42,379 nucleotides of DNA, taken from Rhodoplanes elegans (GTDB lineage: Bacteria; Pseudomonadota; Alphaproteobacteria; Rhizobiales; Xanthobacteraceae). The notes below the pieces were generated by a model that was given only the letters and a program-made list of their open reading frames with translations, had not been told where the DNA came from and made no database searches. A program made the translations under genes and the position numbers. The stretch spans positions 1-42,379 of the forward strand of contig NZ_NHSK01000054.1 of assembly GCF_016653355.1 (NCBI RefSeq), given 5' to 3'. Position 1 is the stretch's first letter. The number at the start of each line of letters is the position of its first letter. This document shows, piece by piece, positions 13,090 to 28,145 of this stretch.

Positions 13090-14313
13090 CTACCCCAGCA
13101 TCAGCTTCTCGTCGTAGGGTGCCCGCGAGAGCACGTGCGGGGCGCCCTCGGTGACCAGCACCATGTCCTCCAGCCGCACGCCGCCGCCGCCGCGCACGCC
13201 CGGCACCCAGATCAGCGGCTCGACCGCGAACACCATGCCGGGCTCGAACTCGTAGGTCGGCGCGCCCGGCAGCGTCTCGCCGATATAGGGCGGCTCGTTC
13301 GCGCCGATGCCGACGCCGTGGGCGATGAACAGCGACAGGAACCGCCCGTCGAGCCCGTACTTGCTCGCCGCCCGCACGATCGCGTCGGTGCAGTCCTTGT
13401 TGGTGCGGCCGGGTCGCATCTCGGCGATGCCGGCCATCAGCCCTTCGTAGACGGCCGTGAAGATGCGCTTCTGCTGATCGGACGGCTTGCCGCAGATGAC
13501 GGCGCGCGCGACGTCGCCGAAATAGCCGCCATAGGCCGCGCCGATGTCGATGAAGACGATGTCGCCGGAGCGGATCAGCTTGTCGCCGCAGATGCGGTTG
13601 GGCGGCGCCATGTGTTCGCCCGAGGCGACGAACGGAGTCATCACGTGCGAGTACTCGCCGCCGAGCCGGAACAGCGTGCGCATCGCCTCGCCGGCGACCT
13701 CGCATTCGCGCACCCCGTCGGCGATCGCCGCCGTGGCCGAGGCCGTGACGGCGTCGGCGATCGCGGTCGCCTCTTCGAGCAGCACGATCTCCTCGGGCAG
13801 CTTGTGGCGGCGCGCCATCAGCATCGGCGTGTCGCCGTCCTCGATGGCGAGCTTGGGGAAGTGGCGCTGCAGCGCCTTCACGAAGACGATGTTGGCCTCG
13901 TCGAGGCCGAGCTTCGCATCGGTGAGGCCGTGCTTGCGCAGCACGGGTCCGAGGATGTCCTTGACCATGCCGTCGACGAGGGCGACCTCCTCGATGATCG
14001 GGATGGTGTGGGCCTCCTCGATCCACGGCATGGTGAGGTCGACGCGATCGCGCTCGCCACCCGAGCAGAACAGGATCGGGGCGTGCCCCTCGACCAGCAG
14101 CGCGCCGTTGAGCGCCGTCGTCTTGCCGGTGATGAGCTGCGGCCGCAGATCGGTGAGATACCGCTGGTTCTCGTCCTTCCAGACGAGCAGCGCGTCGAGC
14201 CCGGCCTTGCGGCGCTGCTCCTGCGCCTTCGCGATGCGCTTCTGCCGCAACGCAGCGACGTCGAGGCGCCTCTCGTAGCCGACATTGAAGGGGCCGCGCG
14301 CATACCGGTCCAT
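13090..14313 (-). CDS. M24-family metallopeptidase (Xaa-Pro peptidase/creatinase-like group)
   Basis: This 407-residue protein has the creatinase N-terminal domain (about residues 24-165) and a pita-bread catalytic domain (about 175-405). The five metal ligands are present: Asp256 in FIDIGA, Asp267 in FGDVAR, His332 in AHGVGI, Glu365 in AVEPL and Glu382 in VRLED. The proton-shuttle His234 (SGEHM) is also kept. It is therefore a metal-dependent hydrolase and not a true creatinase, which lacks these ligands. The C-terminal layout, with a Gly-rich loop between the two glutamates and an APYDEKLM tail, looks closest to creatinase/ectoine-hydrolase-like members. It is the last gene of the minus-strand amide-catabolism cluster, but it is set apart by 391 bp and by a repeat, so cotranscription is unproven. 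Substrate unknown; an imidopeptide or N-acyl amine is likely. Confidence 0.85.
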   Translation of the reverse strand: MDRYARGPFNVGYERRLDVAALRQKRIAKAQEQRRKAGLDALLVWKDENQRYLTDLRPQLITGKTTALNGALLVEGHAPILFCSGGERDRVDLTMPWIEEAHTIPIIEEVALVDGMVKDILGPVLRKHGLTDAKLGLDEANIVFVKALQRHFPKLAIEDGDTPMLMARRHKLPEEIVLLEEATAIADAVTASATAAIADGVRECEVAGEAMRTLFRLGGEYSHVMTPFVASGEHMAPPNRICGDKLIRSGDIVFIDIGAAYGGYFGDVARAVICGKPSDQQKRIFTAVYEGLMAGIAEMRPGRTNKDCTDAIVRAASKYGLDGRFLSLFIAHGVGIGANEPPYIGETLPGAPTYEFEPGMVFAVEPLIWVPGVRGGGGVRLEDMVLVTEGAPHVLSRAPYDEKLMLG

Positions 14314-14704
14314 GCGGACTGTCTCCTCGAATTTTCTGAGCTGTCGCGGTCGGGTCGAGCCGCCCGGGAGGGGATCCCGGGTCCGCGATCATCGGGGCGA
14401 GGAGACTACACGACCCCGGCGCGTGCACAGAACCCGCGGTCCTGCAGAGCAGCCGTCGCGGAATCGGAGGGCGACGAATTGTCTCCCGGACCCTGTATGA
14501 CAGGTGTGCGGTGCAGAAACGATGGCACTGGCTCGTCCCGGGGCGACGCGCAAGCGCCGAGCCCGGGACCCATACGCCCTACCTGTCGTGAGCCACTGCC
14601 GCTGGGGTTATGGATCCCGGGCTCGCGGACCTGCGGTCCGCGCCCCGGGATGACGGATTATGCGCACGCCGACGAGGGGAAGAGGGAAGAGCAGCGCGCG
14701 CCCC
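14314..14704. other. 391-bp intergenic gap holding repeat element A copy 2
   Basis: I see no gene here. The right half is occupied by the A element at 14535-14655. The left half has an inverted CCCGGG pair (14363-14368 and 14376-14381) within 75 bp of the M24 start and probably contains the M24 promoter, since the gap is long for an operon. Confidence 0.45.
14535..14655. repeat. Bipartite palindromic repeat, element A copy 2
   Basis: This is nearly identical in plan and closely similar in sequence to copy 1: hairpin 14535-14569, linker with CATACGCC and TTATGG, hairpin 14614-14651. It starts 50 bp beyond the ABC permease stop. Together with copy 1, in the same orientation, it brackets the M24 gene. 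Confidence 0.8.
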
Positions 14705-15463
14705 CTACTTCCCCGACCAGTGCACGAAACGGCGCTCGATCGTGAGGAACAGGAGATTCAGCCCGTAGCCGAGCGCGCCGGCGGCGGCGATCGCCGCGTA
14801 CATCCGCGGCATGTCGAAGAGCTGCTGGGCCTCGAAGACGCTGTGGCCGAGGCCGTCTTGCGAGCCGATGAACATCTCGGCGACAACGATGATGACGAGC
14901 GCGAGCGACACGCCGTTGCGCAGGCCGACGAAGGTCTGCGGCAGCGACTCCCACAGCATCACGTCGAAGAGCACGCGCAGGCGCGAGGCGCCCATCACCT
15001 TGGCGGCGAGCAGCCGCGTCTTTCGCGCATTCATGACACCGTAGGCGACGTTGAACAGGATGACCAGAATCGCCCCGAAGGCGGCGACCGAGATCTTGGT
15101 CTCGTCGCCGACGCCGAACAGAACCAGGAACAGCGGGAACATGGCCGAGGCCGGGGTGGAGCGGAAGAAGTCGATGACGAATTCGAGCGAGCGGTAGAGC
15201 CGCTCCGACGAGCCCAGCATGATGCCGAGCGGGATGGCGATGACGGCCGCGATGATGGTCGCCATCGTCGTGCGGTAGACGGTCTTGACGAAGTCGAAGC
15301 CGAGCGCGCCGCCGTCCATGCCCTTCCAGAAGGCCTTGAAGGTCTCGGCCGGCGACGGCAGAAGCACCGGGTCGACCCAGCCGCGCGCCGTGACCAGCGA
15401 CCAGATGGCGAGCAGGCCGGCGACGCCGACCAGCGGCAGGAAAGAATCGAGCCGGCGGATCAT
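14705..15463 (-). CDS. ABC transporter permease (SsuC/NrtB/TauC type)
   Basis: This 252-residue inner-membrane permease has about six membrane segments. The ATPase-docking EAA loop is recognisable as AAKVMGASRLRVLFDVMLWESLPQ (the conserved Gly lies in VMGAS). The family imports small organic anions or amides such as sulfonates, nitrate, cyanate, or pyrimidine precursors. Its ATG overlaps the ATPase stop by 4 bp (ATGA), so the two are translationally coupled. The substrate is inferred from neighbours: a cyclic amide or imide degraded by the enzymes encoded upstream. Confidence 0.88.
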   Translation of the reverse strand: MIRRLDSFLPLVGVAGLLAIWSLVTARGWVDPVLLPSPAETFKAFWKGMDGGALGFDFVKTVYRTTMATIIAAVIAIPLGIMLGSSERLYRSLEFVIDFFRSTPASAMFPLFLVLFGVGDETKISVAAFGAILVILFNVAYGVMNARKTRLLAAKVMGASRLRVLFDVMLWESLPQTFVGLRNGVSLALVIIVVAEMFIGSQDGLGHSVFEAQQLFDMPRMYAAIAAAGALGYGLNLLFLTIERRFVHWSGK

Positions 15464-16323
15464 CCTCGCCTCACCTCGCGCTGGAACACCTCGAGGCAGT
15501 GCGCCTTGAGTCGGACGAACTCCGGATCCGACAGCGTCTCGTCGCCGCGCGGCCGCGGCACGTTCACAGGCACGAAGTCGGCGACCCGGGCGGGGTGACG
15601 CGACAGCAGCAGCACCCGATCGGCGAGATACACGGCCTCCTCGAGGTCGTGCGAGACCAGCACCATGGTGGTGCCGCTCTCGATGAACAGCTTCTGGAGC
15701 TGCTCGCGCATGAACAGCGTCATCTCGTAGTCGAGCGCCGAGAACGGCTCGTCGAGGAACAGGATCTCGGGCTCGACGACGAGCGCCCGCATGATCGAGA
15801 CGAGCTGCTGCTGGCCGCCCGACATGTGATAGGGATGCAGGTTGAGATCGATCTTGACGCCGAGCCGCTCGACCAGCGCCTCGGTGCGCGCCTTGCGCTC
15901 CGCCGCCGGCACCTTCATCAGCTTGAGCGGATAGGCGATGTTGTCGAAGGCGCGCATCCAGGGGAACAGCGCCTCGCGGTAGTTCTGGAACACGTAGCCG
16001 AACTTGATCTCGGAGAGCAGCATTCCGTCGAACAGGATGCGGCCGGCGTCCACCGGGATCAGCCCGGCGATCATGTTGATCAGCGTGCTCTTGCCGCAAC
16101 CGTTCGGGCCGAACACCGAGATCAGCTCGCCGCGCGGGATGTCGAGGTCGAAGTCGTCGTAGATGACGGTCTTGCCGAAGCGCTTGCTGAGGCCCCGGAT
16201 GGTGACGTGCGGCCGCTTACCGACGCCACCGACCGGCGGGGTCGAGGGGAACTCCTCGCCGTGATGATCAGGCGACGAGTATCCCATCGGTGGGGAGCGG
16301 ACGGCGTCCGGCGTGGCGTCCAT
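15460..16323 (-). CDS. ABC transporter ATP-binding protein (SsuB/NrtD/TauB type)
   Basis: This 287-residue ATPase carries every nucleotide-binding motif. Walker A is GPNGCGKST (residues 72-80), the Q-loop glutamine is Gln113 (FQNYREALFPW), the signature is MSGGQQQ (167-173), Walker B is ILFLDEP (187-193), and the switch is VSHD. About 38 polar residues precede the usual start of the domain. The ATG at 16323 is chosen; an upstream frame to 16374 is possible, and internal ATGs or GTGs would shorten the tail. It is coupled to the permease by a 4-bp overlap, and a palindromic repeat separates it from the binding-protein gene upstream. Confidence 0.9.
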   Translation of the reverse strand: MDATPDAVRSPPMGYSSPDHHGEEFPSTPPVGGVGKRPHVTIRGLSKRFGKTVIYDDFDLDIPRGELISVFGPNGCGKSTLINMIAGLIPVDAGRILFDGMLLSEIKFGYVFQNYREALFPWMRAFDNIAYPLKLMKVPAAERKARTEALVERLGVKIDLNLHPYHMSGGQQQLVSIMRALVVEPEILFLDEPFSALDYEMTLFMREQLQKLFIESGTTMVLVSHDLEEAVYLADRVLLLSRHPARVADFVPVNVPRPRGDETLSDPEFVRLKAHCLEVFQREVRRG

Positions 16324-16378
16324 GAGCGGCGACCTGTCGGGAGCTGAGATGTTACAGACGCGACCTGACCTCAATCCG

Positions 16379-16476
16379 TCATCCTGATGTGTTCGCCCGC
16401 AGGGCGAGCCTCGAAGGATGCGGCCCGGGCCGTCGCCCTTCGAGGCCCGGCTTCGCCGGGCACCTCAGGGTGACGG
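16379..16476. repeat. Palindromic repeat, element B copy 1
   Basis: A hairpin-rich element runs from TCATCCTGATG to CACCTCAGGGTGACGG, containing GCCCGCAGGGC, CCTTCGAGG and GGCCCGGCTTCGCCGGGC stems. It starts 53 bp after the binding-protein stop (in transcription direction) and ends 56 bp before the ATPase start. Its relative is at 22966-23058. Placement between the binding-protein gene and the membrane components recalls the REP element between malE and malF, which stabilises the upstream mRNA. Confidence 0.75.
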
Positions 16477-16528
16477 AACAGACGTGCGGCACGGCGGGAA
16501 CTTCGACGCTGTCCCCTGCGGATCGGCA

Positions 16529-17509
16529 TCAAAATCCCTTCACGACCTTCTTCACATCGATCTTCTCGGGCACGACGCCTATCTCGGTACCGAAGTCGGC
16601 GAACTGCTGCAGCCAGCCGAGCTGCTCGGGGCTCATGTCCTTGGTCATCGTGTAGCCGAGCATCGGCACCTCGTCGACGACGTTGTCCGGCGTCATCGTG
16701 TTCTTGGCGAGGTACTTTCGCGCCTCGGTCGGGTTCTTCTTGATGTAGTCCACGGCCTCGGCCCAGCCCTCGGCGAAGCGCTTGGCGACGTCCGGGCGCT
16801 TGGCGATGAAGTCCGACGTGAAGGCGCAGCCCGCCGCGAAGGCGTCGGCCTTCGGATTGCCGAGGATGTAGGTCGAGATCACGCCCGCCTCGATGCGCTT
16901 CGCCACCCCCATCTTCTCCATGATGGTGGCGCCGGGCTCCAGCGTGTAGCCGCCGTCGAACGTGCCGGCCTTCATGGCGTTGACGTGCTGGCCCATGTCG
17001 AGCTGATCGATCGTGTAGTCGCCGTCCTTCAGCCCGACCTTGGCGAGCACGCCCTTCGCCGTGTTGAGGTTCGCCGGTCCCGGCGCCGACATCAGCTTGA
17101 GGCCCTTGAGATCGGCGATCGACTTGACCTTGTCGGTGAGGCCGGTGCGGACGACGAACTGCTCCATCTTGTAGTCGGGCGTCTGGCTGTGCATCGCGAT
17201 GTACATGGCGACGCCCGGCTTCTTGACGTTGGCGTTGAGGCCTTCGAGCGTGACCAGAACGGCCGAGACCTCGATCTGGTTGGTCATCAGCGCCGCGACA
17301 TTGGCCGGGCCGCCCATCAGCTTGATGGTCTCGGGCTCGATGTTGCGGGCCTTGAAGTAGCCCCGCTCGATCGCCACGAAATAGGGCAGCGACGACGAGA
17401 TCGGGAACACCCCGACCTTCACCTTGTCCTGCGCCGCGGCCGGGGCGCCCGAGACGCCGAGGGCCACGAGCGCGGCGGCGAGCGCTCCGATCGTTCCGAA
17501 CAGCTTCAT
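16529..17509 (-). CDS. ABC transporter substrate-binding protein (NMT1/SsuA-like)
   Basis: This 326-residue periplasmic protein has a signal peptide (residues 1-26, ending APAAAQ) and a two-lobe NMT1/SsuA-like fold. Visible marks include KVGVFPISSSLPYFVAIERGYF near the mature N terminus, a family hallmark, and SAPGPANLN in the middle, where relatives contact ligand. It delivers substrate to the permease and ATPase encoded downstream. It follows the ring-opening amidohydrolase gene by 161 bp on the same strand, and the pairing suggests that the ligand is the ring compound itself or a close precursor. The ligand cannot be read from the sequence. Confidence 0.9.
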   Translation of the reverse strand: MKLFGTIGALAAALVALGVSGAPAAAQDKVKVGVFPISSSLPYFVAIERGYFKARNIEPETIKLMGGPANVAALMTNQIEVSAVLVTLEGLNANVKKPGVAMYIAMHSQTPDYKMEQFVVRTGLTDKVKSIADLKGLKLMSAPGPANLNTAKGVLAKVGLKDGDYTIDQLDMGQHVNAMKAGTFDGGYTLEPGATIMEKMGVAKRIEAGVISTYILGNPKADAFAAGCAFTSDFIAKRPDVAKRFAEGWAEAVDYIKKNPTEARKYLAKNTMTPDNVVDEVPMLGYTMTKDMSPEQLGWLQQFADFGTEIGVVPEKIDVKKVVKGF

Positions 17510-17670
17510 CAGACGGCTCCCGTGGGTCCTGGCCTCTTCGCCGCGCGGTATGCTCAGGAGGAACGGCGGGTCAGGGTGGTTGGACGGTTGTCGGATCAGA
17601 GGACCGGAGTGCGGCGTGCCGCACTCCGAATTCAGTGTATTTCAAGCAAGGCGCGTGCCACCCGGCGCCG

Positions 17671-18765
17671 TCACTCTCCGACATCCACGATGGCGATCAC
17701 CGGGCCACCACCATGCGGGCCCTGATGCATGGCGTCGACCGACACGAAGACGCAGGGGTCGCCGATCGCCGCCGCGGCGACGCCGCCGACCGCGCCCTTG
17801 GCGTGGCGGTGGTGATGCACGTCGGAATCGTCGAGCATGATCTGGCGGCGGCCGCGCAGGCTCGCCCGCTTGTCCGCCTCGCACTTGATGAAGACGTTGA
17901 CGAGCTTGCCGTTCAGATCGGCGGCGCGGGCGCGCTCCGGCAGGTCGAGGCCGGCGTCCCGGATCGCGTCGTAGATGCCGTCGATGTCGAGGGCGTCCTT
18001 CATCACGGCGTGGCCGATGCGGTAGCGCCCCCCTGCCCCGGGCTTGTTGCCGAGCAGCACGATCTGCGCCTTGGTCAGCTCGACGCCCGACGAGCAGGAG
18101 GCGACCGAGGAGTAGAGATCGAGATTCTTGCAGATCTCCTCCGCCTTGGGCATCGCGATCTCGCCGAGCGCGACGGCGATGCCGAGCGCCGTCGTGCCGT
18201 TCGACACACCCATCGAATCGTGCACCTCGCAGGCGACCGTCTGGCCACGATGCTCGGCATCGCGCACCGAGTCGATGGTGAGAAGCGGCGTCTTGGTCTG
18301 GACGTAGTGCACGTCCTTCGGGTTCTCGATCCCGGCGTCGCGCATCGCCGCCCTCACGGCGGCCGCGACCTTCTCGACCATGGCGGGCCGGCCGATGTCC
18401 TCCGGGAGCAGATCCTCGGACAGCGCCGTGCCGATGGCGAGCCGCGCCTTGTCGGCCGGGCCGGTCTTCTCGTCGCGCGCGAACACGGTCGCGTGTGGCG
18501 TGATCACGCCGTCGCAGCCGCCCGACCACACCATCGGGATGCCGGCGATCTCGGCCTCGCTGCGCTTGCCCTTGCTCTTCAGCACGCGGCGGAACGCCTG
18601 GTCCGACAGGAGCCGGGTGAAGTCGTTGACGCCGCCGTTGCCCTCGGTCTTGCCGATGACGGCGATCACCTGGTCGGCGGAGAATTGTCCGGCGTCGATG
18701 CAGGCGGCGAGCCCGGAGGCGTCCTGCACGCTCTTGATCTGGATCTTGGCGACATCGATCGCCAT
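17671..18765 (-). CDS. Ring-opening amidohydrolase (cyanuric acid hydrolase/barbiturase family)
   Basis: This 364-residue enzyme belongs to the small family of cyanuric acid hydrolases (AtzD/TrzD) and barbiturases, which open six-membered cyclic amide rings. The family has three similar domains, each giving one Lys and one Ser to a shared active site. The three lysines appear as Lys39 (IGKTEGNG), Lys158 (VQTKTP) and Lys294 (FIKCEAD). Candidate serines are Ser81 (SGGCDG), Ser226 (SSGVEL) and Ser342 ([10 protein letters not shown]). The C-terminal metal/structural loop HQGPHGGGP is intact. As I recall, typical members read SGGTEG in the first domain and VSGGAEHQGP in the third. Here they read SGGCDG and [10 protein letters not shown], so the substrate may differ from both known ones. 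It sits between hyuB and the binding-protein gene. Confidence 0.88.
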
Positions 18766-18785
18766 GCTTCACGTCTCCTTCTTGG

Positions 18786-18819
18786 TCTTTGTATGCGTGT
18801 CTTCGTCTTTGTATGCGTG
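18786..18819 (-). repeat. Two direct copies of a 14-15 bp motif before the amidohydrolase gene
   Basis: TCTTTGTATGCGTG occurs at 18786-18799 and again at 18806-18819, a 20-bp period, 20-55 bp upstream of the amidohydrolase start. It lies in the 85-bp gap after hyuB. The AT content is unusual here. It may be an operator or an mRNA leader element, or a recent small duplication. Confidence 0.45.
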
Positions 18820-18850
18820 GTCGTCGTCATCGGCTGGCGGCGCGGCGCCG

Positions 18851-20725
18851 TCAGCTCGTCCGCGTCCACGGCTTGCACGCACCGCTCAGCATCGCCGCAA
18901 ACCCCGGGCCGCGGTCGATCATCGACAGCGGCGCGGCTCGCCGCAACCTGATTTCATCCCGCAGTGCGGCCGTGGCGTTCGTATCGGGGATCGCAACGCC
19001 GTCGATGCCGATGGTCAGGACGACGCCGTAGTCGTCGTGCGCCGCCTCCGGCGAGACGCGGCCCTCGGTGACGTCCCGCGCCACCAGCTCCGGCTCGCGC
19101 GAGAGCGGGTCACCCCAGCCCCCGCCGCCCGTCGTCACCACGCGGACCACCTGCCCGGCCTTCACGGGCTCGCCGTCGACGAGGCCGCCGAGCGCGCGCG
19201 CCTCGCCGTCCAGATCGACCGTAACGCAGAAGGGCTGACCGGCCGCGCCGCCGTTGACGCCGTAGCAGCCGAGCCGCACCCGATCGGCCGTCACGATGGT
19301 GCGGCAGTCGACCAACGCACGATAATGCTTCTCGTAGCCGAGCCCGCCGCGACGGAAGCCCGCCCCGCCGGAATCGGTGCGCAGCGCGAGCTTCTCGACC
19401 AGCAGCGGAAAGCGCGTCTCGGTGAACTCGGCCGGCTGGTTACGCGAATCCGGCACGATGTGGATGGCGTCGTTTCCATCTGCGTACCAGCGCCCGCCCG
19501 AGCCGCCGCCCAGCACCTCGCGGGACAGGAACGGTGTGCCGTCGCGCCCGATGCCGAAGAAGCCCGTGTAGCGGATCGTCTCCTGGTCGGCCGGGATGCG
19601 GCCGTCGACGGCCTGCGCCACCGTGCCGGCGAGCAGCCCGAGGCAGCGCAGCAGAACGAAAGAGCGCGCATTGGTGGGCGCCGGCCATTCGGGCGTGATC
19701 AGCGTGCCCTTGGGCGGGAAGATCACGTCGAACACCTCGCAGACGCCCTCGTTGACGTCGATCTCGGCGGCGCGTTCCGGCGTGTCGGCGAGGTTGCGCA
19801 GGATCGGCGCGATCCACTTGATCAGGAAGGCGCCGTCGGCATAGTCGGCCGGCCAGTTGATCGGTCCCGCCGACTGCGGATCCGTGCCGGTGAAGTCGAG
19901 CGTGATCTTTCGTCCGCGCTTGATCATTCTCAGCGCGAGCTTGTGCAGCTTGGGATCGGTCAGCCCGTCGTGCTCGACGTAATCCTCCCACGCATATTCG
20001 CCGTCGGCGATCTTCGGGAGGAGCTCGTCGGCGAAGATGTCGCGGCACTTGTCCAGGATGGCCTGGAAGCACGCCTCCACGGTGTCGCGGCCGAACCGCT
20101 CGAACAGCTCGGCCATGCGGCGCGCGCCCACCAGGCAGGCCTGCATCTCGGAGTCGAGATCGGCCGCCAGCATCTCGGGAACACGGGTGTTGCGCTTGAT
20201 GATGGTGAACGCCGCCTCGTTGCGCACGCCCTGGTCGTAGAATTTTATGGGCGGCACCGCGAGGCCTTCCTCGAACACCGAGGTCGCCGTGCCCGGCATC
20301 GAGCCCGGCACGCGGCCGCCGATGTCGTCGTGATGACCGAACGCCTGGATGAAGGCGACCACCTCGCCGTCGTGGAACACCGGCACGGTCGAGCACAGAT
20401 CGGGCAGATGACCGATCGAGCCCTCGGTCAGATAGGTGTCGTTCATCAGGAAGACGTCGCCGGGGCGCATGGTCTCGGGCGGAAAGTCGCGCACCACGGC
20501 GTTCGGCATCGCCGAGTAGGAGCGGCCGGTGAGCTTGCGACACCGGCGATCGAACAGCCCGACCCGATAATCGTGCGCCTCGCGGATCATCGGCGAGCGC
20601 GCGGTGCGCTCGATCGCGTACTCGATCTCCGCCTCGATCGAGTTGAGCGTCCCCTCGACGATCTGCAGGACGATCGGATCGACGGCGGCCTTGGCGGCAG
20701 TCACGTCACGTGGCTGCATGGTCAT
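18851..20725 (-). CDS. hyuB: Hydantoinase/oxoprolinase family subunit B
   Basis: This 624-residue protein is the B subunit of ATP-dependent hydantoinase/5-oxoprolinase-type enzymes, which couple ATP hydrolysis to opening of lactam or imide rings. It matches the family along its length. The segments PNAVVRDFPPETMRPGDVFLMND and AFGHHDDIGG lie in the first third, and the C-terminal Gly-rich TTGGGGWGDP motif is present. Its ATG overlaps the hyuA stop by 4 bp, as usual for coupled A/B genes. The 624-residue length is slightly above the usual 520-600. Neighbouring ring-opening amidohydrolase and amidases indicate that the two systems act on the same compound or on successive intermediates. Confidence 0.92.
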   Translation of the reverse strand: MTMQPRDVTAAKAAVDPIVLQIVEGTLNSIEAEIEYAIERTARSPMIREAHDYRVGLFDRRCRKLTGRSYSAMPNAVVRDFPPETMRPGDVFLMNDTYLTEGSIGHLPDLCSTVPVFHDGEVVAFIQAFGHHDDIGGRVPGSMPGTATSVFEEGLAVPPIKFYDQGVRNEAAFTIIKRNTRVPEMLAADLDSEMQACLVGARRMAELFERFGRDTVEACFQAILDKCRDIFADELLPKIADGEYAWEDYVEHDGLTDPKLHKLALRMIKRGRKITLDFTGTDPQSAGPINWPADYADGAFLIKWIAPILRNLADTPERAAEIDVNEGVCEVFDVIFPPKGTLITPEWPAPTNARSFVLLRCLGLLAGTVAQAVDGRIPADQETIRYTGFFGIGRDGTPFLSREVLGGGSGGRWYADGNDAIHIVPDSRNQPAEFTETRFPLLVEKLALRTDSGGAGFRRGGLGYEKHYRALVDCRTIVTADRVRLGCYGVNGGAAGQPFCVTVDLDGEARALGGLVDGEPVKAGQVVRVVTTGGGGWGDPLSREPELVARDVTEGRVSPEAAHDDYGVVLTIGIDGVAIPDTNATAALRDEIRLRRAAPLSMIDRGPGFAAMLSGACKPWTRTS

Positions 20726-22812
20726 CTTCCGCCCTCCCCGCCCTCGGCGCGAATGATCAGGATGCCGTGCGGGTCCACGGTCAGGGTCTGGCCCGGAAAC
20801 ACCACCGTGGTGGAGCCGAACTCCTCCACCACCAGCGGGCCGACGATCGTCTCGCCGGGCGCCAGCATGGCGCGCGAAAAGATCGGCGTGTCGACGAAGG
20901 CGCCGCCGAACCACACCAGCCGCCGCGCCGGCGGGACCGCGGCGCCCTCGCGCGCGGCGAGCCGCGGGATCGCCGGGCGCTCGATCACGCCGAAGCCCGA
21001 GACCGTGAAGTTGACCAGCTCGATCTGCTGGCGGCCGCGATAGTCGTAGCCGAAGGTCTTCCGGTGCGCCGCGTGAAACGCGTCGATCAGGCCGTCGACG
21101 AAGGCCACGTCCACCGGCCCGGCCGGCGCGACCACCCGCACCTCCATGGACTGGCCGGCGTAGCGGATGTCCGCCTCGCGCACGAGCCGCACCCGCTCGG
21201 CCGCGATGCCGTCGCGCTCCAGCGTCTTTCGCGCGTCGTCCTCCAGCCCGGCGTAGATCGCCGCCACCGCCGCGACGTCGATCGCGCTCTCGTGCATCAC
21301 CTTGGTGACGATGTGATCAGTTCTCCAGTCGACCGCCAGGAGCCCGAAGGCCGAGAGGTTGCCGGGGTTCGGCGGCACGATGCAGGCCTTCATGCCGACC
21401 AGCGCCATCACGGCCGGCGACTGCGCCGGGCCCGAGCCGCCGAACGACAGCAGCGCGAAGTCGCGCGGATCGATGCCGCGCTGCACCGTCATCTGGCGGA
21501 TGGCGTTCGCCTGGTTCCAGTTGGCGATCTCGATGATGCCCTCGGCGAGCCGTTCCGGGCTCATGTCGCCCGGCAGCTGCACGGCGAGCGCCGCGAGCCC
21601 CGCCCGCGCGCGTTCGCGGTCGAGCGGGATGCCGCCGCCGATCAGCGCCGGCGGGATACGGCCGAGCACCAGGTTGGCGTCCGTGATGGTCGGCTGATCG
21701 CCGCCGTTCGGGTAGCACATCGGCCCCGGATCGGCGCCGGCCGATTTCGGCCCGACCTTCAGGTGGCCCTCGCGCGAGATCCAGGCGATCGAGCCGCCGC
21801 CGGTGCCGATCGTCTTGATGTCGATCATCGGCAGCCGCACCGGAAACGGGCCGACCGACCCGCCATTGGTGACGGTCGGACGGCCCTTCTCGATCAGGCA
21901 GAGATCCGTGGACGTGCCGCCGGCGTCGAGCGTCACCAGATCGGGAAAGCCGGCGATCTCGGCGATGACGGCGGAGCCGAGCGCGCCGGCAGCGGGACCG
22001 GACAGCGCCGTGGTGATCGGCTTCTTCATCACCTGCTCGGCGCCGGCGACGCCGCCCGAGGACTGCATCACCAGGAACGGCACCTGCCGCAGCTCGGGGC
22101 CGAGCTCGTCGGCGATGCGGCGCAGGTAGCGGCCGACATGCGGCTTCACGAACGCATCGACCAGCGTCGTCACGGTGCGCTCGTACTCGCGATACTCGGG
22201 CAGCACCTCGCAGGAGAGCGACAGCACGGCCTCCGGGTACTCCTCCGCGACGATCGCGGCGACGCGGCGCTCGTGCGCGGGATTGGCGTAGGCGTGGATC
22301 AGGCAGATGCCGATCGCCTCGATCCCCTGCTGCTTGAAGGCGCGTGCCGCGGCCCGCACCGCGTCCTCGTCGAGCGGGCGCAGCTCGCGGCCGAGAAAGT
22401 CGAGCCGGCCGCCGACCTCGCGCACGCGGTGCAGCGGCACGAGACGATCGGGCTTCACCCAGAAATAGGAGTTGCCGTAGCCGTCCGGCACCGACTGACG
22501 GGCGATCTCGAGAACATGGCGGAAGCCCTCGGTGACGATCAGGCCGAGTGAGTCGATGGCGCCCTGCAGCAGCGCGTTGGTCGCGACCGTGGTGCCGTGC
22601 GCGAGGCCGGCGACGTCGGCGATGTCGGCATCGGCGCTCTTCAGGATCTCGACGACGCCGCGCACCAGGCCGATCGCGGGGTTCTTCGGCGTCGAGGCGA
22701 CCTTGGTGACCCGCATGGCGCCCGAGGCGGCGTCGACCGCGACGATGTCCGTGAAGGTGCCGCCGGTGTCGATGCCGATCCGCACTCCCGCCTGCGTCGC
22801 GCCCTGCGCCAT
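20722..22812 (-). CDS. hyuA: Hydantoinase/oxoprolinase family subunit A
   Basis: This 696-residue subunit contains the sugar-kinase/actin-type ATP-binding fold of HyuA. The N-terminal phosphate loop is DTGGTFTD (residues 15-22), with a second, LDAGGTSTDLCLI, in the middle domain. The three Pfam regions expected (Hydant_A_N, Hydantoinase_A and the C-terminal domain) are all covered. Relatives act on N-methylhydantoin, 5-oxoproline, hydantoins, caprolactam or acetone (as carboxylases), so the family alone does not fix the substrate. The start at 22812 (MAQGAT) has GGGAGAC upstream; 28 further upstream codons are not conserved. A T-N11-A palindrome at 22917-22931 lies 105 bp upstream and is the probable LysR operator. 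Confidence 0.93.
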   Translation of the reverse strand: MAQGATQAGVRIGIDTGGTFTDIVAVDAASGAMRVTKVASTPKNPAIGLVRGVVEILKSADADIADVAGLAHGTTVATNALLQGAIDSLGLIVTEGFRHVLEIARQSVPDGYGNSYFWVKPDRLVPLHRVREVGGRLDFLGRELRPLDEDAVRAAARAFKQQGIEAIGICLIHAYANPAHERRVAAIVAEEYPEAVLSLSCEVLPEYREYERTVTTLVDAFVKPHVGRYLRRIADELGPELRQVPFLVMQSSGGVAGAEQVMKKPITTALSGPAAGALGSAVIAEIAGFPDLVTLDAGGTSTDLCLIEKGRPTVTNGGSVGPFPVRLPMIDIKTIGTGGGSIAWISREGHLKVGPKSAGADPGPMCYPNGGDQPTITDANLVLGRIPPALIGGGIPLDRERARAGLAALAVQLPGDMSPERLAEGIIEIANWNQANAIRQMTVQRGIDPRDFALLSFGGSGPAQSPAVMALVGMKACIVPPNPGNLSAFGLLAVDWRTDHIVTKVMHESAIDVAAVAAIYAGLEDDARKTLERDGIAAERVRLVREADIRYAGQSMEVRVVAPAGPVDVAFVDGLIDAFHAAHRKTFGYDYRGRQQIELVNFTVSGFGVIERPAIPRLAAREGAAVPPARRLVWFGGAFVDTPIFSRAMLAPGETIVGPLVVEEFGSTTVVFPGQTLTVDPHGILIIRAEGGEGGR

Positions 22813-22916
22813 CGCGTACCGTCTCCCGATGAGGCGCCCGGAGCGGGCGCGAGGTCCGACAGCAAAAGTATGCGAAGCGCAGTTGTCCTTGTCCAAGCGG
22901 GATTGGCGAAGCCATT

Positions 22917-22931
22917 ATCGGAAAAACCGAT
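22917..22931. promoter_or_regulatory. Perfect palindrome fitting a LysR-type T-N11-A box
   Basis: ATCGG-AAAAA-CCGAT is a perfect 15-bp inverted repeat with T at 22918 and A at 22930, exactly 11 bases apart. LysR-type regulators typically bind T-N11-A dyads in the 5' region of the operon they control. It lies 105 bp upstream of hyuA and 154 bp downstream of the LysR stop, so it could control hyuA onward. Confidence 0.55.
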
Positions 22932-22965
22932 GGCTCTGACGGTCGCGGCGCGCACCGCCCGAGCG

Positions 22966-23058
22966 CCTCATGGTGAGGAGCGCTCCGCAGGAGCGCGTCT
23001 CGAACCATGTGGCCGCCATCCTTCGAGACGCCCGCTGCGCGGGCTCCTCAGGATGAGG
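22966..23058. repeat. Palindromic repeat, element B copy 2
   Basis: This element runs from CCTCATGGTGAGGAG through GCTCCGCAGGAGC and CTTCGAGACGCCCG to CTCCTCAGGATGAGG. It sits 26 bp after the LysR stop in the direction of transcription. It shares the ATCCTTCGAG core and CTCAGG ends with copy 1 at 16379. It may terminate or stabilise the LysR transcript before hyuA. Confidence 0.75.
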
Positions 23059-23084
23059 CGGATCGACGCATTTCGCCGCCCGCG

Positions 23085-23978
23085 TCACTCCACCAGCGCG
23101 GCGCGTACCACGGCGAAGTGGCTCTCCTTGCGGCGCGACAGGGCCTGGCGGCGGCGGTAGAGGTTCATGCGGATGTTGCGTTGCGGCGTGATCGGCAGCG
23201 CCCGCAGCACGCCGAGCGCGACCTCGTTCTCCACGCAGGCGCGCGGCACGATGGCGAGCCCCCGCCCCGACTGCACGATCACCTTGATGGTCTCGATGTT
23301 GTCGGCGACCGCGAGGATGTTGGGCCGGATGCCGAGATCGGCGAACATCGCGTGGACGACGCGGCCGTAGCCGACCGACAGCTCGCTCATCACGATCGGC
23401 TCCAGCACCAGGCGGCCGAGATCGACCGCGCCGGTGCCGCGGGCGAGCGGGTGTGCCGGATGCGCGATCAGGGTCAGCTCGGCCTCCGCGAGCGGCTCGA
23501 ACACGATGCCGGCCGGCACGTGCTCGGGATCGGATTCGATCGCGAGGCCGGCGTCGATCTTCTCCTCGGCGAGCAGCGCGAAGATGGTCTTGGTGGGAGC
23601 CGTGAGGATGTCGAGGCGCACCGTGCGCAGGCTGTCCGGCACCGCGTGGAACAGCTTGGGGATCACGATCTGCGCCATGCCGGAGCCCATGGCGAGCGTG
23701 AAGGTCTCGGACGGCGCGCGCTTGAGCCGGCGGGCGATGTCGCCGAGGCTGTCGAAGTCGCCGACGACGCGCTCCGCCTCGTAGAAGAAGGTGCGGCCCG
23801 CCTCCGTCACCTCGATGCCGCGCGGCGTGCGGCGGAACAGCGAGAAGCCGATGCTCTCCTCCAGCATCCGCACCTGCTCGCTGACGGCCGACTGCGACAC
23901 GTTCAGCCGTTCCGCAGCGCGGGTAAAACTGCGCTCGCGGGCGACGCTCAGGGCGTAGCGGATCTGACGGAGCTCCAT
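23085..23978 (-). CDS. LysR-family regulator of the amide-catabolism cluster
   Basis: This is a 297-residue LysR-type regulator with a typical N-terminal HTH (about residues 3-60: ALSVARERSFTRAAERLNVS, then QSAVSEQVRMLEE) and an effector-binding domain. It lies between the amidase pair (27 bp upstream) and hyuA (272 bp downstream), all on the same strand. This is less common than the divergent LysR layout. The T-N11-A palindrome in the LysR-hyuA gap is the natural candidate site. It probably responds to the substrate or an early intermediate. Its protein resembles NAC/Cbl-like group LysR proteins only in general form, so no inducer class can be named. Confidence 0.92.
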   Translation of the reverse strand: MELRQIRYALSVARERSFTRAAERLNVSQSAVSEQVRMLEESIGFSLFRRTPRGIEVTEAGRTFFYEAERVVGDFDSLGDIARRLKRAPSETFTLAMGSGMAQIVIPKLFHAVPDSLRTVRLDILTAPTKTIFALLAEEKIDAGLAIESDPEHVPAGIVFEPLAEAELTLIAHPAHPLARGTGAVDLGRLVLEPIVMSELSVGYGRVVHAMFADLGIRPNILAVADNIETIKVIVQSGRGLAIVPRACVENEVALGVLRALPITPQRNIRMNLYRRRQALSRRKESHFAVVRAALVE

Positions 23979-24005
23979 TCTCGCCTCCGCCGATCCGCGA
24001 CGTTA

Positions 24006-25208
24006 TCAGACTCTGGCGCCCCGTCGCCCCGCATCGAGGGCGGCGCCGACCAGGCGCTCGTCGGCGCCCGGCGCACCGATCAGCGAGAGGCCGACCGGCA
24101 GGCCGTCGACGCTCGCGAACGGCATCGTCACCTGCGGCGTGCCGGCCATGCCGGAGACCGCGGTGAGCGCGATGATGCCGGTGCGCAGCCCCCACATGGT
24201 CGAGCGCTTCTGGCCGGCGAGCGGCGCCGGGAACGGCGTCGTCGGCAGCGCGATCAGGCTGCCGTCGGCCAGCAGCGCGTGGACGCGCTCGCGCACCTGC
24301 TCCCGGGTCTCGCGCGCCGCCGCGAGCTCGTCGGGGCTCGCCTTGATGCCGCGCAGAAAATTGTCGGCGACCTCGAAGGAGAAGCGCGGATTGGTGCCGT
24401 CGATCCAGTCGCCGAACGTGGTCCAGGCCTCGCGACCCTGCAGCGCCGCCTGGTGCGACGACCAGGCGGCGAGCCCGGTCGGCGACAGCGTCACCCGCTC
24501 GATCGCCGTCTCGCCGCCGAACGCCTTGGTCAGCGCCGCCTCGACCGCGGCGGCGGTCGCCGGCTCGGCGACGGCGAGCGCGTCCTCGGCGAGGAAGATG
24601 CGCTTCGGCCGCGCGGCCTCGATCGACGACTCCAGCAGCACCGCACTGACGCGGGCGAAAATGTCCGCGTCGTCGGCCATCCAGCCGACGGTATCAAAAC
24701 TCGGCGCCTGCGGCAGCATGCCGGCGACCGGCACGCGGCCGTGCGTCGTGCGGATGCCGTAGAGGCCGCAGAAGGACGACGGCACCCGCACCGAGCCGGC
24801 CGTGTCGGTGCCGATGGCGAACGGCACGGTGCCGCCGGCGACCGCGGCGGCCGAGCCGCTCGACGAGCCGCCCGGGATCCGGCCCGGGGCGCGCGCGTTG
24901 GTCGGCGTGCCGTAGAACGCGCTCTCGCCGAAGATGCCGCGCGAGATCTCGTCCGTGATGGTCTTGCCGATCATGGTGGCGCCGGCGGCGACCAGCGTCT
25001 CGATCGCCCAGGCGGTCTCCTCGGCGGGCGGATGGCTGTCGCGCCAGTCGAAGTTGCCGCCCCCGGTGCGGTGGCCCTTCACGTGGAACAGGTCCTTGGC
25101 GCCGAACGTGAGCCCGCTCAGCGGGCCGCGCGGCTTGCCGTCGAGACGCACGTCGACGTCGTGACAGAACGCGTTATGAGGATCCGAGAACGAGGCAGCG
25201 TCGGTCAT
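24006..25208 (-). CDS. Amidase-signature family amidase (short form)
   Basis: This 400-residue amidase-signature enzyme hydrolyses a C-N amide bond. The Ser-cisSer-Lys triad is complete: Lys38 (FGAKDLF), cis-Ser115 in PGGSSSGSAAA, and nucleophile Ser139 in GTDTAGSVRVPS. The length matches the short amidase group (about 400 residues), which includes indole-acetamide hydrolase-like plant AMI1. Its ATG overlaps the stop of the upstream amidase by 4 bp, so both are translationally coupled. In cyanurate pathways an amidase-signature enzyme (AtzE) acts on 1-carboxybiuret, so one of the two could play an equivalent role. That is inference from context. Confidence 0.9.
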   Translation of the reverse strand: MTDAASFSDPHNAFCHDVDVRLDGKPRGPLSGLTFGAKDLFHVKGHRTGGGNFDWRDSHPPAEETAWAIETLVAAGATMIGKTITDEISRGIFGESAFYGTPTNARAPGRIPGGSSSGSAAAVAGGTVPFAIGTDTAGSVRVPSSFCGLYGIRTTHGRVPVAGMLPQAPSFDTVGWMADDADIFARVSAVLLESSIEAARPKRIFLAEDALAVAEPATAAAVEAALTKAFGGETAIERVTLSPTGLAAWSSHQAALQGREAWTTFGDWIDGTNPRFSFEVADNFLRGIKASPDELAAARETREQVRERVHALLADGSLIALPTTPFPAPLAGQKRSTMWGLRTGIIALTAVSGMAGTPQVTMPFASVDGLPVGLSLIGAPGADERLVGAALDAGRRGARV

Positions 25209-26662
25209 GCGGCAAATCCGGGCGCGATGGTTTTGGTCGGGACGAGCTCCTGCATCACGCGGGCGACGCCCAGCACGGTCGCCTCGCCGAGCCGCGGCGC
25301 GGCGACCTGCAGGCCGACCGGCAGGCCGTTGACGTCGAGGCCGGCCGGCACCGAGGCGGTCGGCACGCCGACCAGCGTGAGCACATAGGTGGGCGCGATC
25401 CAGTCGATGTAGCTCTTCATCGGCTGGCCGGCGATGTGGGTCGGATGGTTCTGCTCGACCGGGAACGGCGGCACCGGAACGCACGGCGTCAGCAGCACGT
25501 CGTAACGTGAGAAGAACGCGCAGGTGCGCTCCCACAGCCGGGCGCGCGCGGCCTCCGCCTCCACCACCTGGGCGAGGCTCAGCGACTTGCCGTAGGCGAT
25601 GTTGCCGGCGAGGTTCTTGCCCATCCGGTCGATCTGATCCATGCGCGAGCGATGTGTGAGCAGCACGGCGGCACCGCGCAGGACGGGGAACGCCTCGCGG
25701 CCATCGGCGAGATCCAGCACCGTCTCCTCGACGACGGCGCCCGCCTCCTCCAGCACGCGCGCGGCGCGGCGACACAGGGCCGCGATGCCGCTGTCGATGC
25801 CGACGCCGGAGACGTCGTCGACATAGCCGACCCGGAGACCCTTCGCCGAGAAGGCCCGCACCTTGTCCAGCAGGCCGTCCATGGTCACGGGCAGCGAGAT
25901 GGGAGAGCCGGCGCAGGGACCGGCGATCGCCTCCATGGCGAGCGCGACGTCCTGCGCGGTGCGCGCCATCGGGCCGGAGACGCGCAGCGAATCCCACGGC
26001 AGCGCGGAGGGCCGCAGCGGCGTGAGGCCGGGCGTCGGGCGCAGGCCGACGACGCCGCAGAACGACGCCGGCACCCGCAGCGAGCCGCCGAAGTCGGTGC
26101 CCTCGGCGAGCGGGAACAGGCCGGCTGCCAGCGCCGCGGCGCCGCCGCCCGTGGAGCCGCCGGCGGAGAGGCGGACATCCCAGGGATTGCGGGTGACGCC
26201 GAACACCTCGTTGAACGTGTTGGCGCCGGCCGCGAACTCCGGCGTGTTGGTCTTGGCGACCACGATGGCGCCGGCCGCCTTCAGCCGGCGAACCACCTCG
26301 GCGTCGGCGGCCGGGATGTTGGTCTCGTAGAGCTTGGAGCCGAAGGTCGTGCGGATGCCGGCCGTCTGGGTCACGTCCTTGATGCCGACCGGCACGCCGT
26401 GCAGCGGCCCGAGCGGTTCCCCGTGCATCACGGCCGCCTCGGCGGCGAGCGCCGCCTGACGGGCCTGCTCACGCGCGATGGTGCAGACGGAGTTGATCGG
26501 CCCGTCGCGGCGCTCGATGCGGTCGATCACGGCCTCGACCACCTCGCGCGGCGACACGGCCTTGGTGCGGATCGCGGCGGCGAGCGAGACGGCGTCGAGC
26601 CGGGCGAGGTCCTCGGCGGACGAGACCGCGGCGGAGGACACGGACGAGACGGAGCTGGTCAT
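25205..26662 (-). CDS. Amidase-signature family amidase (long form)
   Basis: This 485-residue amidase has the triad Lys95 (VGIKDV), cis-Ser170 and nucleophile Ser194 (GTDFGGSLRVPAS). The usual GGSSGGSAAA loop reads AGGSTGGGAAA, so the second Ser is Thr and the final Ser is Gly. The catalytic cis-Ser is kept. It is the first gene of the minus-strand cluster. The ATG at 26662 is favoured by AAGG six bases upstream; a GTG at 26692 would add ten residues. Three CCTCGAGGA copies lie 33-72 bp upstream. The product's substrate is unknown; short peptides, N-carbamoyl amines and linear ureides all fit the family. Confidence 0.9.
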   Translation of the reverse strand: MTSSVSSVSSAAVSSAEDLARLDAVSLAAAIRTKAVSPREVVEAVIDRIERRDGPINSVCTIAREQARQAALAAEAAVMHGEPLGPLHGVPVGIKDVTQTAGIRTTFGSKLYETNIPAADAEVVRRLKAAGAIVVAKTNTPEFAAGANTFNEVFGVTRNPWDVRLSAGGSTGGGAAALAAGLFPLAEGTDFGGSLRVPASFCGVVGLRPTPGLTPLRPSALPWDSLRVSGPMARTAQDVALAMEAIAGPCAGSPISLPVTMDGLLDKVRAFSAKGLRVGYVDDVSGVGIDSGIAALCRRAARVLEEAGAVVEETVLDLADGREAFPVLRGAAVLLTHRSRMDQIDRMGKNLAGNIAYGKSLSLAQVVEAEAARARLWERTCAFFSRYDVLLTPCVPVPPFPVEQNHPTHIAGQPMKSYIDWIAPTYVLTLVGVPTASVPAGLDVNGLPVGLQVAAPRLGEATVLGVARVMQELVPTKTIAPGFAA

Positions 26663-26985
26663 GAACAGCCTTGCGACAGGGCCTTGGGACACGGCCTCGA
26701 GGACTTGAGCCTCGAGGATTTGCGGCCTCGAGGATCTGGGGACCGGGCGGCCCCACGGCCCTGCTTAGCAGCGCCGCCAATTGCATGCAAAATTCGTGCA
26801 GGTTCTCCGGCGCGCGGTGGGCCGCGGTCCGCGGTCCGCGGCACCGACCCGAGGATCGATCACTTGCGATGTAAACCGACTTGGACAAATCGCCCCGGCC
26901 GGTCATACACTCGCGGCGCCGCCGACCATCCGGGCCGCGCGCGCCGGACGGCTCGGGGTTGATGATCCCGGACGTGAAATCCCCC
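26663..26985. other. Divergent intergenic region between the amidase operon and the broken MBL gene
   Basis: No gene is visible. The left part carries the CCTCGAGGA array. At about 26819-26844 there are three tandem CCGCGGT-like units. A GC-poorer stretch, AATTGCATGCAAAATTCGTGC (26778-26798), is the most likely promoter area for one of the divergent genes. Confidence 0.4.
26695..26734. repeat. Three CCTCGAGGA units upstream of the first amidase gene
   Basis: CCTCGAGGA occurs at 26695-26703, 26710-26718 and 26726-26734, spaced 15-16 bp apart, with TTG and TTTG-containing linkers. CCTCGAGG is itself palindromic. The array covers the position expected for a promoter or operator of the amidase operon. 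Confidence 0.5.
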
Positions 26986-27250: not shown

Positions 27251-28108
27251 TCACCGTGGCTCCTCCGCCGCCACCACGTCCTGCCAGCGCAGGAACGGCG
27301 CCGTCGCGACGACCAGGATCCAGTCGGTGGTCTTGCCGAGGATCGCGAAGGCGACGATGGCGGCGACGATCTGGGCCGGCTTGCCGAGCTGCTGGCCGTC
27401 GACCAGCAGATAGCCGAGCCCCTCGCCGGCCCCCATGAACTCGGCCGCGACGACGAACATCCAGCCGAGCCCGAGCCCGGCCCGCAGCGACACGACGAAG
27501 CTCGGCAGCACGGCGGGCAGCAGGATCCGCCGCACCATCGCGGGGCCGCTCAGGCGAAAGATGCGGCCGACCTCGACGACCTTGCGGTCGACCGCGACGA
27601 TCGCCCCCATCACGCCGAGATAGACCGGGAAGAACACGCCGACCGCGATCAGCGCCACCTTGGACGCCTCGAAGATGCCGAGCCACAGGATGAACAGCGG
27701 CACCCAGGCGATCGACGGGATGGCGCGCAGCGCCTGGAGGGTCGGGTCGAGGAGCGAGCGCGCGAGCGCCGAGTAGCCGGCGATCGCGCCCATCACGGTG
27801 CCGGCGACCGCGCCGAGCCCGAAGCCGGCGGTGACCCGGGCGACGGTCGCGGCGGTGTGGCGGGCGAGCTCCCCGGTGACGGCCAGATCCGCGAAGGTCT
27901 GGGCGATGCGCGAGGGCGGCGGCACCAGGCGGCCGTCCGACAGCCCGGCCCGCACCGCGAGCTCCCAGCCGACCGCGGCGACGATGGGTACGACGAGGCC
28001 GAGCGCGACGCCGCGCCAGCGCCGGCGCTTGGTCTCGCGGCGCGGACGGCCGGAGACGCCGGCCTGGGCCGGCGCGGCGATCCGCACGCTGTCGATCTCG
28101 GCACTCAT
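27251..28108 (-). CDS. ABC transporter permease (SsuC-like)
   Basis: This 285-residue inner-membrane permease has a basic N terminus and about six membrane segments, and an EAA-type loop with the conserved Gly (RIFRLSGPAMVRRILLP). The N-terminal PPPSRIAQTFADL segment is typical of SsuC/TauC. Its partner is the binding protein 37 bp upstream. No ATPase gene follows, although ssuA-ssuC-ssuB is a common order; the sequence past its stop is instead the broken MBL gene. It ends in FLRWQ, close to normal, so the gene itself seems whole. It is different in sequence from the permease at 14705. Confidence 0.85.
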   Translation of the reverse strand: MSAEIDSVRIAAPAQAGVSGRPRRETKRRRWRGVALGLVVPIVAAVGWELAVRAGLSDGRLVPPPSRIAQTFADLAVTGELARHTAATVARVTAGFGLGAVAGTVMGAIAGYSALARSLLDPTLQALRAIPSIAWVPLFILWLGIFEASKVALIAVGVFFPVYLGVMGAIVAVDRKVVEVGRIFRLSGPAMVRRILLPAVLPSFVVSLRAGLGLGWMFVVAAEFMGAGEGLGYLLVDGQQLGKPAQIVAAIVAFAILGKTTDWILVVATAPFLRWQDVVAAEEPR

Positions 28109-28145
28109 CGCGACGGCGGCATGGGGAGCAACGCGCGAGCCCGGA

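Follow-up and report, generated by a model that had tools for sequence, protein, structure and literature searches.

In Rhodococcus erythropolis the oxidative pathway leads from pyrimidines via barbiturate and ureidomalonate to malonate and urea, with barbiturase and ureidomalonase among its enzymes (PMC3758960). Reversible opening of a pyrimidinedione ring has been documented for LumH (PMC12746152), and known enzymes of the HyuAB family are carboxylases or have cyclic amides as substrates (PMC8453981). Here we describe a minus-strand cluster of ten genes, at positions 13090-26692 of a 42,379-nucleotide stretch of Rhodoplanes elegans DNA (the window; contig NZ_NHSK01000054.1, C54 of the 6.54 Mb genome). 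It combines a ring-opening amidohydrolase of the AtzD/barbiturase family (BAR) with the predicted subunits of an ATP-dependent cyclic-amide hydrolase (HyuA and HyuB, together HyuAB), an NMT1-type ATP-binding cassette (ABC) importer, two amidase-signature enzymes (AmiA and AmiB), a LysR-family regulator and an M24-family hydrolase. The cluster is real, conserved and mostly explainable as a variant of the oxidative pyrimidine pathway in which a second, putatively ATP-driven ring-opener is present. An earlier note on this DNA had described an uptake and degradation cluster for an unidentified cyclic amide, imide or ureide. The type of cluster stands, and the ring is no longer anonymous, because the residues of BAR and the neighbouring genes point to barbiturate-type oxopyrimidines. 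That the cluster serves the catabolism of such rings with BAR and HyuAB acting in parallel has, in our estimate, about an even chance of being right.

The best solved relative of BAR is a barbiturase (5hwe, 506 bits), whereas the best cyanuric acid hydrolase reaches only 320 bits; the nearest named match is from Rhodoplanes tepidamans (93%). The residues thought to separate the two activities are Asn195, His321, Lys325, Val345 and Ser/Ala346 in barbiturase and Arg195, Thr321, Arg325, Gly345 and Gly346 in cyanuric acid hydrolase (PMC3758960). BAR has N, H, K, V and D at these positions, agreeing with the barbiturase set at four out of five and with the cyanurate set at none. Each of the six positions of the three Ser-Lys dyads given in the same paper holds the expected Ser or Lys. 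Relatives were found with short peptides of the window's BAR, one of which spans the Asp position, and the best 80 of 128 loci were used, a sample that favours near relatives. The same five residues occur in all 79 aligned relatives (locus L085 gave no BAR gene call). The genome contains a second gene of the AtzD/Bar family on contig C63 (11173-12255; L001, L192), 43% identical to BAR, and this copy bears the full cyanurate set (5/5). Assignment of BAR itself as a cyanuric acid hydrolase was rejected on the misfit of the residues, though the NCBIfam model for that enzyme passes. Judged by its sequence, BAR probably hydrolyses barbiturate to ureidomalonate without ATP.

The other genes of the relative loci were recognised by tblastn above identity cut-offs (at least 60% for HyuA, HyuB, the ATPase and the permease, at least 45% for the periplasmic binding protein SBP and LysR, at least 50% for AmiB), and genes were called with a non-standard codon-score caller of our own. 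The loci are labelled as bins and genomes of Alphaproteobacteria, Betaproteobacteria and Rokubacteria. HyuA was found in 31 of the 80, HyuB in 34, SBP in 34, the ATPase in 31 and the permease in 30; among the 44 loci with long flanks, HyuA and HyuB occur together in 20, and in 19 the HyuAB-importer set is complete. Every HyuA, HyuB, SBP, ATPase, permease, AmiA, AmiB and M24 gene found shares the strand of BAR. The usual order is LysR-HyuA-HyuB-BAR-SBP-ATPase-permease-AmiA, and its core, from LysR to the permease, recurs in alpha- and betaproteobacterial loci. The earlier note had treated all ten genes as one unit, a view that the relatives do not support: the arrangement with AmiA and AmiB upstream and M24 in the downstream place was seen only in Rhodoplanes (the window, L006 and L048).

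HyuA (E<=1e-220) and BAR (E<=1e-130) were also searched for in 391 independently drawn genomes from the family to which the window belongs. HyuA was present in 40 genomes, BAR in 37 and both in 30, against 3.8 expected (Fisher p 1e-29, relatedness ignored). In 26 of the 30 the two genes lie on the same contig, their starts no more than 5,017 bp from each other, and in four they are on different contigs. The earlier note had proposed looking for co-occurrence in related genomes, and had held that genes lying apart with no repeated association would speak for chance; the association of the core genes does recur. Divergence is correlated between BAR and HyuB (rho 0.76) and between HyuA and HyuB (0.78), less so between BAR and AmiA (0.44), values that have no neutral-pair baseline. 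In an order-wide draw HyuA had a match at E<=1e-100 in 206 of 397 genomes; among the matches listed besides the window's own, identity did not exceed 49% over the greater part of the protein, with one partial match at 55%, and thus the close HyuA group is too rare in that draw.

HyuAB and BAR are separable. In six of the ten genomes with HyuA only, HyuB runs directly into the importer with no BAR between, and the other four are cut by contig ends, one of them (G546) showing a BAR fragment. Genomes G477, G511 and G571 (99-100% complete) hold HyuA-HyuB-SBP-ATPase-permease, and no match to PF09663, the Pfam family of BAR, was found in them, nor in G607 (87% complete) or G458 (66% complete); G484, where BAR is likewise missing between HyuB and the importer, has two PF09663 genes elsewhere. 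AmiA follows in G511, G571 and G607, and as a fragment in G458. G484, G571 and G607 have a close molybdenum hydroxylase (Mo-hydroxylase) gene in the vicinity of the importer. In a tree of HyuB the six BAR-less HyuAB-importer genomes and G573, whose BAR lies elsewhere, are scattered over four positions among BAR-bearing operons; two of these placements are well supported, including that of a clade of G607, G571, G477 and G511 inside BAR-bearing relatives.

The comparison of the seven BAR-only genomes covers six, G533 being left out. G406, G514 and G668 have stretches without HyuAB, and in G668 (locus L009, 90% complete) BAR is followed by AmiA and no HyuA was found at E<=1e-220. G440, G488 and G633 have the BAR coordinates of L060, L025 and L014, loci whose HyuAB sequence runs up to the end of the contig. 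At L022 BAR and AmiA stand without HyuAB nearby, and since its genome (G573) has HyuAB at a separate site, it is no HyuAB-free case. Taking into account that the separable enzymes share amidase and importer, the best reading is that they are parallel ring-openers. The earlier note had offered either a two-step opening or the opening of two related rings. Consecutive steps agree badly with HyuAB operons kept in genomes in which no PF09663 gene was found, and parallel or interchangeable openers fit better.

The assignment of HyuAB to its family agrees with the PF05378, PF01968 and PF19278 domains of HyuA and the PF02538 domain of HyuB, encoded in adjacent genes with a 4-bp overlap. In a by-eye alignment to 6yra_B, which from its chain names and matching numbering appears to belong to CapAB, HyuB keeps the Asp, His, Asp and His metal ligands of CapB (positions from PMC8453981), and with these four caprolactamase ligands kept, the ATP-driven chemistry described in that paper is plausible for HyuAB. 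The window genome has three HyuB-family matches in 6.5 Mb, and by our own arithmetic the chance of such a match in a given 20-kb stretch is about 1%. Two assignments were rejected: with the caprolactamase CapAB models (NF050156/NF050157) the scores are 505 and 197 bits against equivalog cut-offs of 1000, and for acetophenone carboxylase they are far under the equivalog cut-offs. We tentatively suggest, as a possibility short of an even chance, that the close HyuAB group is an ATP-driven barbiturate-type hydrolase, a second and unrelated opener of fully oxidised pyrimidine rings. It could replace barbiturase, as in the genomes without BAR, or accept rings that barbiturase does not open, 5-methylbarbiturate derived from thymine for instance, and would define proteobacterial and actinobacterial oxidative pyrimidine clusters.

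One representative of each neighbouring family was scanned. Near BAR in the 80 loci lie genes for cytosine-deaminase-like proteins (24 loci), CoxL-type Mo-hydroxylases (11), PRK07236-type flavin monooxygenases (6), FdrA-like proteins (5), malonyl-CoA (coenzyme A) decarboxylases (4) and NCS2 permeases (3); the names of the deaminase, CoxL and permease are family-level, because their representatives score under the NCBIfam cut-offs. HyuB at 60% or more accompanies CoxL in 7 of the 11 loci, and in L007, L012 and L067 the order is HyuA-HyuB-CoxM-CoxS-CoxL-permease-BAR. In a plasmid collection, BAR at 60% or more occurred only in the records of two actinobacteria with looser clusters, Nonomuraea and Embleya, which are also the two best HyuA records among the matches listed (54%). 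Within 16 kb Embleya encodes BAR (66%), HyuA (54%), HyuB (64%), an NCS1 permease, a PucR regulator, a cytosine deaminase that scores above its cut-off, a CoA-transferase, a carboxyltransferase and a carbamate kinase, with pyrimidine genes between BAR and HyuAB. Nonomuraea has BAR, the carboxyltransferase, the CoA-transferase and HyuAB in common with it, over a span of 22 kb; no counterpart of the Embleya deaminase or kinase was found there by blastp. These neighbours fit oxidation of uracil to barbiturate, its opening to ureidomalonate and the disposal of malonate (pathway in PMC3758960), and the CoxL-type enzyme may be the one that makes barbiturate from uracil in the relatives.

Put together, the following scheme can be envisaged. 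The NMT1-type importer would bring the ring compound in, BAR would probably open barbiturate to ureidomalonate without ATP, and HyuAB would open the same or a closely related ring, e.g. a 5-substituted barbiturate, with ATP; the pattern of which genomes keep which enzyme suggests that the two act in parallel rather than in sequence. AmiA and/or AmiB could then cleave the opened acyl-urea or malonamate to malonate and ammonia or urea, with LysR as the putative regulator. Mo-hydroxylase and cytosine-deaminase-like genes may feed the pathway from cytosine or uracil in some relatives, though not in the window genome. The first step of LumH, another pyrimidinedione hydrolase, is reversible (PMC12746152), and a possible reason for HyuAB is that ATP use would pull an otherwise reversible ring opening forward.

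Several observations weigh against this scheme. The fifth specificity residue of BAR is Asp, not Ser/Ala, in all 80 sequences (the window and 79 relatives), therefore the exact ring could differ; the NCBIfam cyanuric acid amidohydrolase model NF052395 gives BAR 455 bits at a cut-off of 360; and at the first position, which is asparagine in the window and in PMC3758960, PMC4051656 assigns glutamine to the barbiturase group. In 20 of the 24 cytosine-deaminase loci and in all four malonyl-CoA decarboxylase loci no HyuB reaches 60%, so the pyrimidine genes vouch more for BAR than for HyuAB. The best HyuA match outside the close group is the 54% of the plasmid records, so that no substrate can be transferred. 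The absence of PF09663 from near-complete BAR-less genomes rests on one clade, and the fold family of SBP binds sulfonates, thiamin precursors, pyrroloquinoline quinone and other ligands. In the window genome the Mo-hydroxylase and the cytosine deaminase have best matches of only 40% and 39%, therefore its input is uncertain and would be an imported compound, which may be barbiturate itself.

Part of this evidence would suit a different ring for BAR and HyuAB (cyanurate, a hydantoin or a purine-derived ring), with the neighbouring pyrimidine genes belonging to a separate pathway: the Asp, the cyanurate model above its cut-off, the lack of a close Mo-hydroxylase or cytosine-deaminase relative in the window genome, the absence of HyuB from most deaminase loci and the broad ligand range of the importer fold. 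We consider this rather unlikely, however, given that BAR matches the barbiturase set at four of five positions and the cyanurate set at none, that a cyanurate-type copy already exists on C63, and that the operons of L007, L012 and L067 enclose Mo-hydroxylase and permease genes, with pyrimidine genes standing between BAR and HyuAB in Embleya. A sequential arrangement would need no second ring: BAR would form ureidomalonate and HyuAB would be its ATP-dependent cleaver. The product of barbiturase does require a second hydrolase (PMC3758960), HyuB adjoins BAR in most loci with both (gap of 12-129 bp in 24 of 34), and nothing like AmiA or AmiB was recognised by blastp near BAR and HyuAB in Embleya and Nonomuraea. 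What makes the sequential arrangement unlikely in our view is that G477, G511 and G571 keep HyuAB and the importer (with an amidase in G511 and G571) and no PF09663 was found there, that in loci where close HyuAB is missing, for example L009 and L057, AmiA or AmiB comes immediately after BAR, and that cyclic-amide hydrolysis and carboxylation are the activities known in the HyuAB family (PMC8453981). That independent catabolic genes were grouped by chance seems hardly credible. The families are common (15 CoxL-type and three HyuB-type matches in the window genome) and M24 and AmiB are not conserved in place, but for the core genes chance is contradicted by order and strand kept across alpha- and betaproteobacterial loci, by the strong co-occurrence of HyuA and BAR in the 391 genomes and by the correlated divergence of BAR and HyuB, which is close to that of HyuA and HyuB, although no neutral pair serves as baseline.

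Some loci have variants of the gene content near BAR. FdrA-like and AllG-like genes (the latter in 3 of the 80 loci) follow BAR or its cluster mainly in betaproteobacterial loci (L031:11170-14120, L033:15373-18407, L042:13776-16780; FdrA only in L024 and L043), and in Embleya the carbamate kinase gene adjoins BAR (L222:9718-10623). By analogy to oxamate carbamoyltransferase, these proteins could catalyse phosphorolysis of ureidomalonate to malonamate and carbamoyl phosphate. In L041, L044 and L051 a 2-oxoglutarate-Fe(II) oxygenase and an alpha/beta hydrolase are encoded between the Mo-hydroxylase genes and LysR; the oxygenase near L044 matches several solved enzymes, among which thymine dioxygenase ranks eighth. 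In five further loci (L195-L199, genomes G694, G704, G730, G732 and G751) a different ring-opening amidohydrolase with the signature R-Q-R-G-G adjoins the same type of Mo-hydroxylase (CoxL 82-84% identical to relatives of the window cluster). These loci also hold a flavin-monooxygenase-like protein, a protein of about 170 amino acids (one scanned, no Pfam match) and, in four of the five, an amidase; G704 and G751 have a window-type importer alongside. The R-Q-R-G-G enzyme is possibly a further specificity group of the AtzD/Bar family.

The genes of the cluster are listed in Table 1. Open reading frames (ORFs) and Pfam/NCBIfam matches bore out the earlier description of ten consecutive minus-strand genes of these families, and the three 4-bp overlaps it reported are exact (AmiA/AmiB at 25205-25208, HyuA/HyuB at 20722-20725, ATPase/permease at 15460-15463). 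The AmiA ORF reaches 26692, further upstream than the 26662 given earlier. The true start of HyuA is probably at 22812 (residue 29), because its close relatives align only from residues 6-37, mostly 20-37.

Table 1. Genes of the Rhodoplanes elegans cluster (positions in the window)
Gene product	Position	Strand	Features
AmiA, amidase-signature enzyme	25205..26692	-	495 aa; PF01425 347 bits; start possibly 26662
AmiB, short amidase-signature enzyme	24006..25208	-	400 aa; PF01425; NCBIfam PRK08310 460 bits, cut-off 391
LysR-family regulator	23085..23978	-	PF00126/PF03466
HyuA, predicted ATP-binding subunit of ATP-dependent cyclic-amide hydrolase	20722..22896	-	PF05378, PF01968, PF19278
HyuB, metal-site subunit	18851..20725	-	PF02538 449 bits
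BAR, AtzD/barbiturase-family ring-opening amidohydrolase	17671..18765	-	PF09663 (Amido_AtzD_TrzD) 474 bits, cut-off 25
SBP, NMT1/SsuA-type periplasmic binding protein	16529..17509	-	PF13379/PF09084
ABC importer ATPase	15460..16374	-	PF00005
ABC importer permease	14705..15463	-	PF00528 on longer ORF
M24-family hydrolase	13090..14313	-	PF00557 (Peptidase_M24) 163 bits; PF01321 (Creatinase_N)

By their position AmiA and AmiB are candidates for the cleavage of ureidomalonate. Lys105, Ser180 and Ser204 of AmiA occupy what we take to be the places of the Lys-cisSer-Ser triad. AmiA-like genes occur in 32 of the 80 loci with 47-58% identity, except for the two Rhodoplanes (88%), and AmiB at 50% or more in eight, namely the two Rhodoplanes and six alphaproteobacterial loci in which it directly follows BAR. 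Malonamidase E2 matches AmiA and AmiB with 94-100 bits, below many other amidases. The M24 gene lies 391 bp from the permease, and its sequence contains the metal-ligand motifs, whose residues presumably bind the metal; it was found in two of the 80 loci, L006 and L048, both Rhodoplanes, and is a Rhodoplanes-type accessory. The ectoine hydrolase DoeA was rejected as an identity of M24 (TIGR02993, 87 bits against a cut-off of 613). LysR at 45% or more is present in 29 loci, on the strand of BAR in 21 of them.

The matches of the permease to SaoP/TauC/SsuC-type NCBIfam models are all below cut-off. The predicted structure of SBP (mean predicted local distance difference test score, pLDDT, 91) matches the SsuA/TauA/Thi5 fold family; the 50 folds listed match at 11-20% identity with many ligands and are uninformative on the ligand. 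A further permease and an NMT1-type binding protein are encoded just upstream of AmiA (27251-29408, minus strand). No ATPase gene was seen between this pair and AmiA, and the extra binding protein had no tblastn match in L006. The gap between LysR and HyuA contains a G+C-rich stretch with a palindromic core (23017-23049, minus strand), which presumably resembles a dispersed repeat known from this bacterial family. The 14 bases at its end are present a single time in the window. A scan for promoters and terminators was uninformative (two promoter-like sites against 0.9 expected, three terminator-like against 4.1).

The loci suggest that the oxidative pyrimidine pathway is more widespread, with labels from Alphaproteobacteria, Betaproteobacteria and Rokubacteria and two actinobacteria, and they supply candidates for the genes of import, of barbiturate formation and of ureidomalonate cleavage. 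The HyuAB family gains a testable substrate class, and the question arises why ATP should be spent on a ring that a neighbouring enzyme could hydrolyse without it. No paper joining HyuAB with barbiturase, and none adding HyuAB and an NMT1-type ABC importer to the oxidative pathway, turned up in the open-access literature, the coverage of which was incomplete; this agrees with the earlier note, which knew of no described pathway pairing the two ring-opening chemistries.

Among known systems, lumichrome C-ring degradation (LumH, LumI, LumM) likewise hydrolyses a pyrimidinedione in steps, the first of them reversible, but the words "hydantoin" and "barbitur" are absent from the main text of PMC12746152. 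In the indoleacetate pathway of Aromatoleum a HyuAB-like enzyme (IaaCE) has been proposed to open an N-heterocycle with ATP (PMC8453981), the ring there being a different one, 2-oxoindoleacetate. With the ATP-dependent hydantoinase/5-oxoprolinase/caprolactamase family (HyuAB, CapAB) the window's HyuAB shares the Pfam domains and the four CapB metal ligands, but it scores far below the caprolactamase equivalog cut-offs and belongs to a distinct close group that usually occurs with BAR. Cyanuric acid clusters (AtzD/TrzD with an AtzE-type amidase) also combine a PF09663 enzyme with an amidase-signature enzyme; in the window, in contrast, BAR has none of the five cyanurate residues, and the cyanurate-type copy is separate, on C63. 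The R. erythropolis pathway shares the barbiturase type of BAR; in some relatives of the window cluster Mo-hydroxylase, cytosine-deaminase-like and malonate genes lie alongside. The window genome differs from it in lacking a close Mo-hydroxylase relative and in the Asp at one specificity position of BAR, and its cluster adds HyuAB and an NMT1-type ABC importer.

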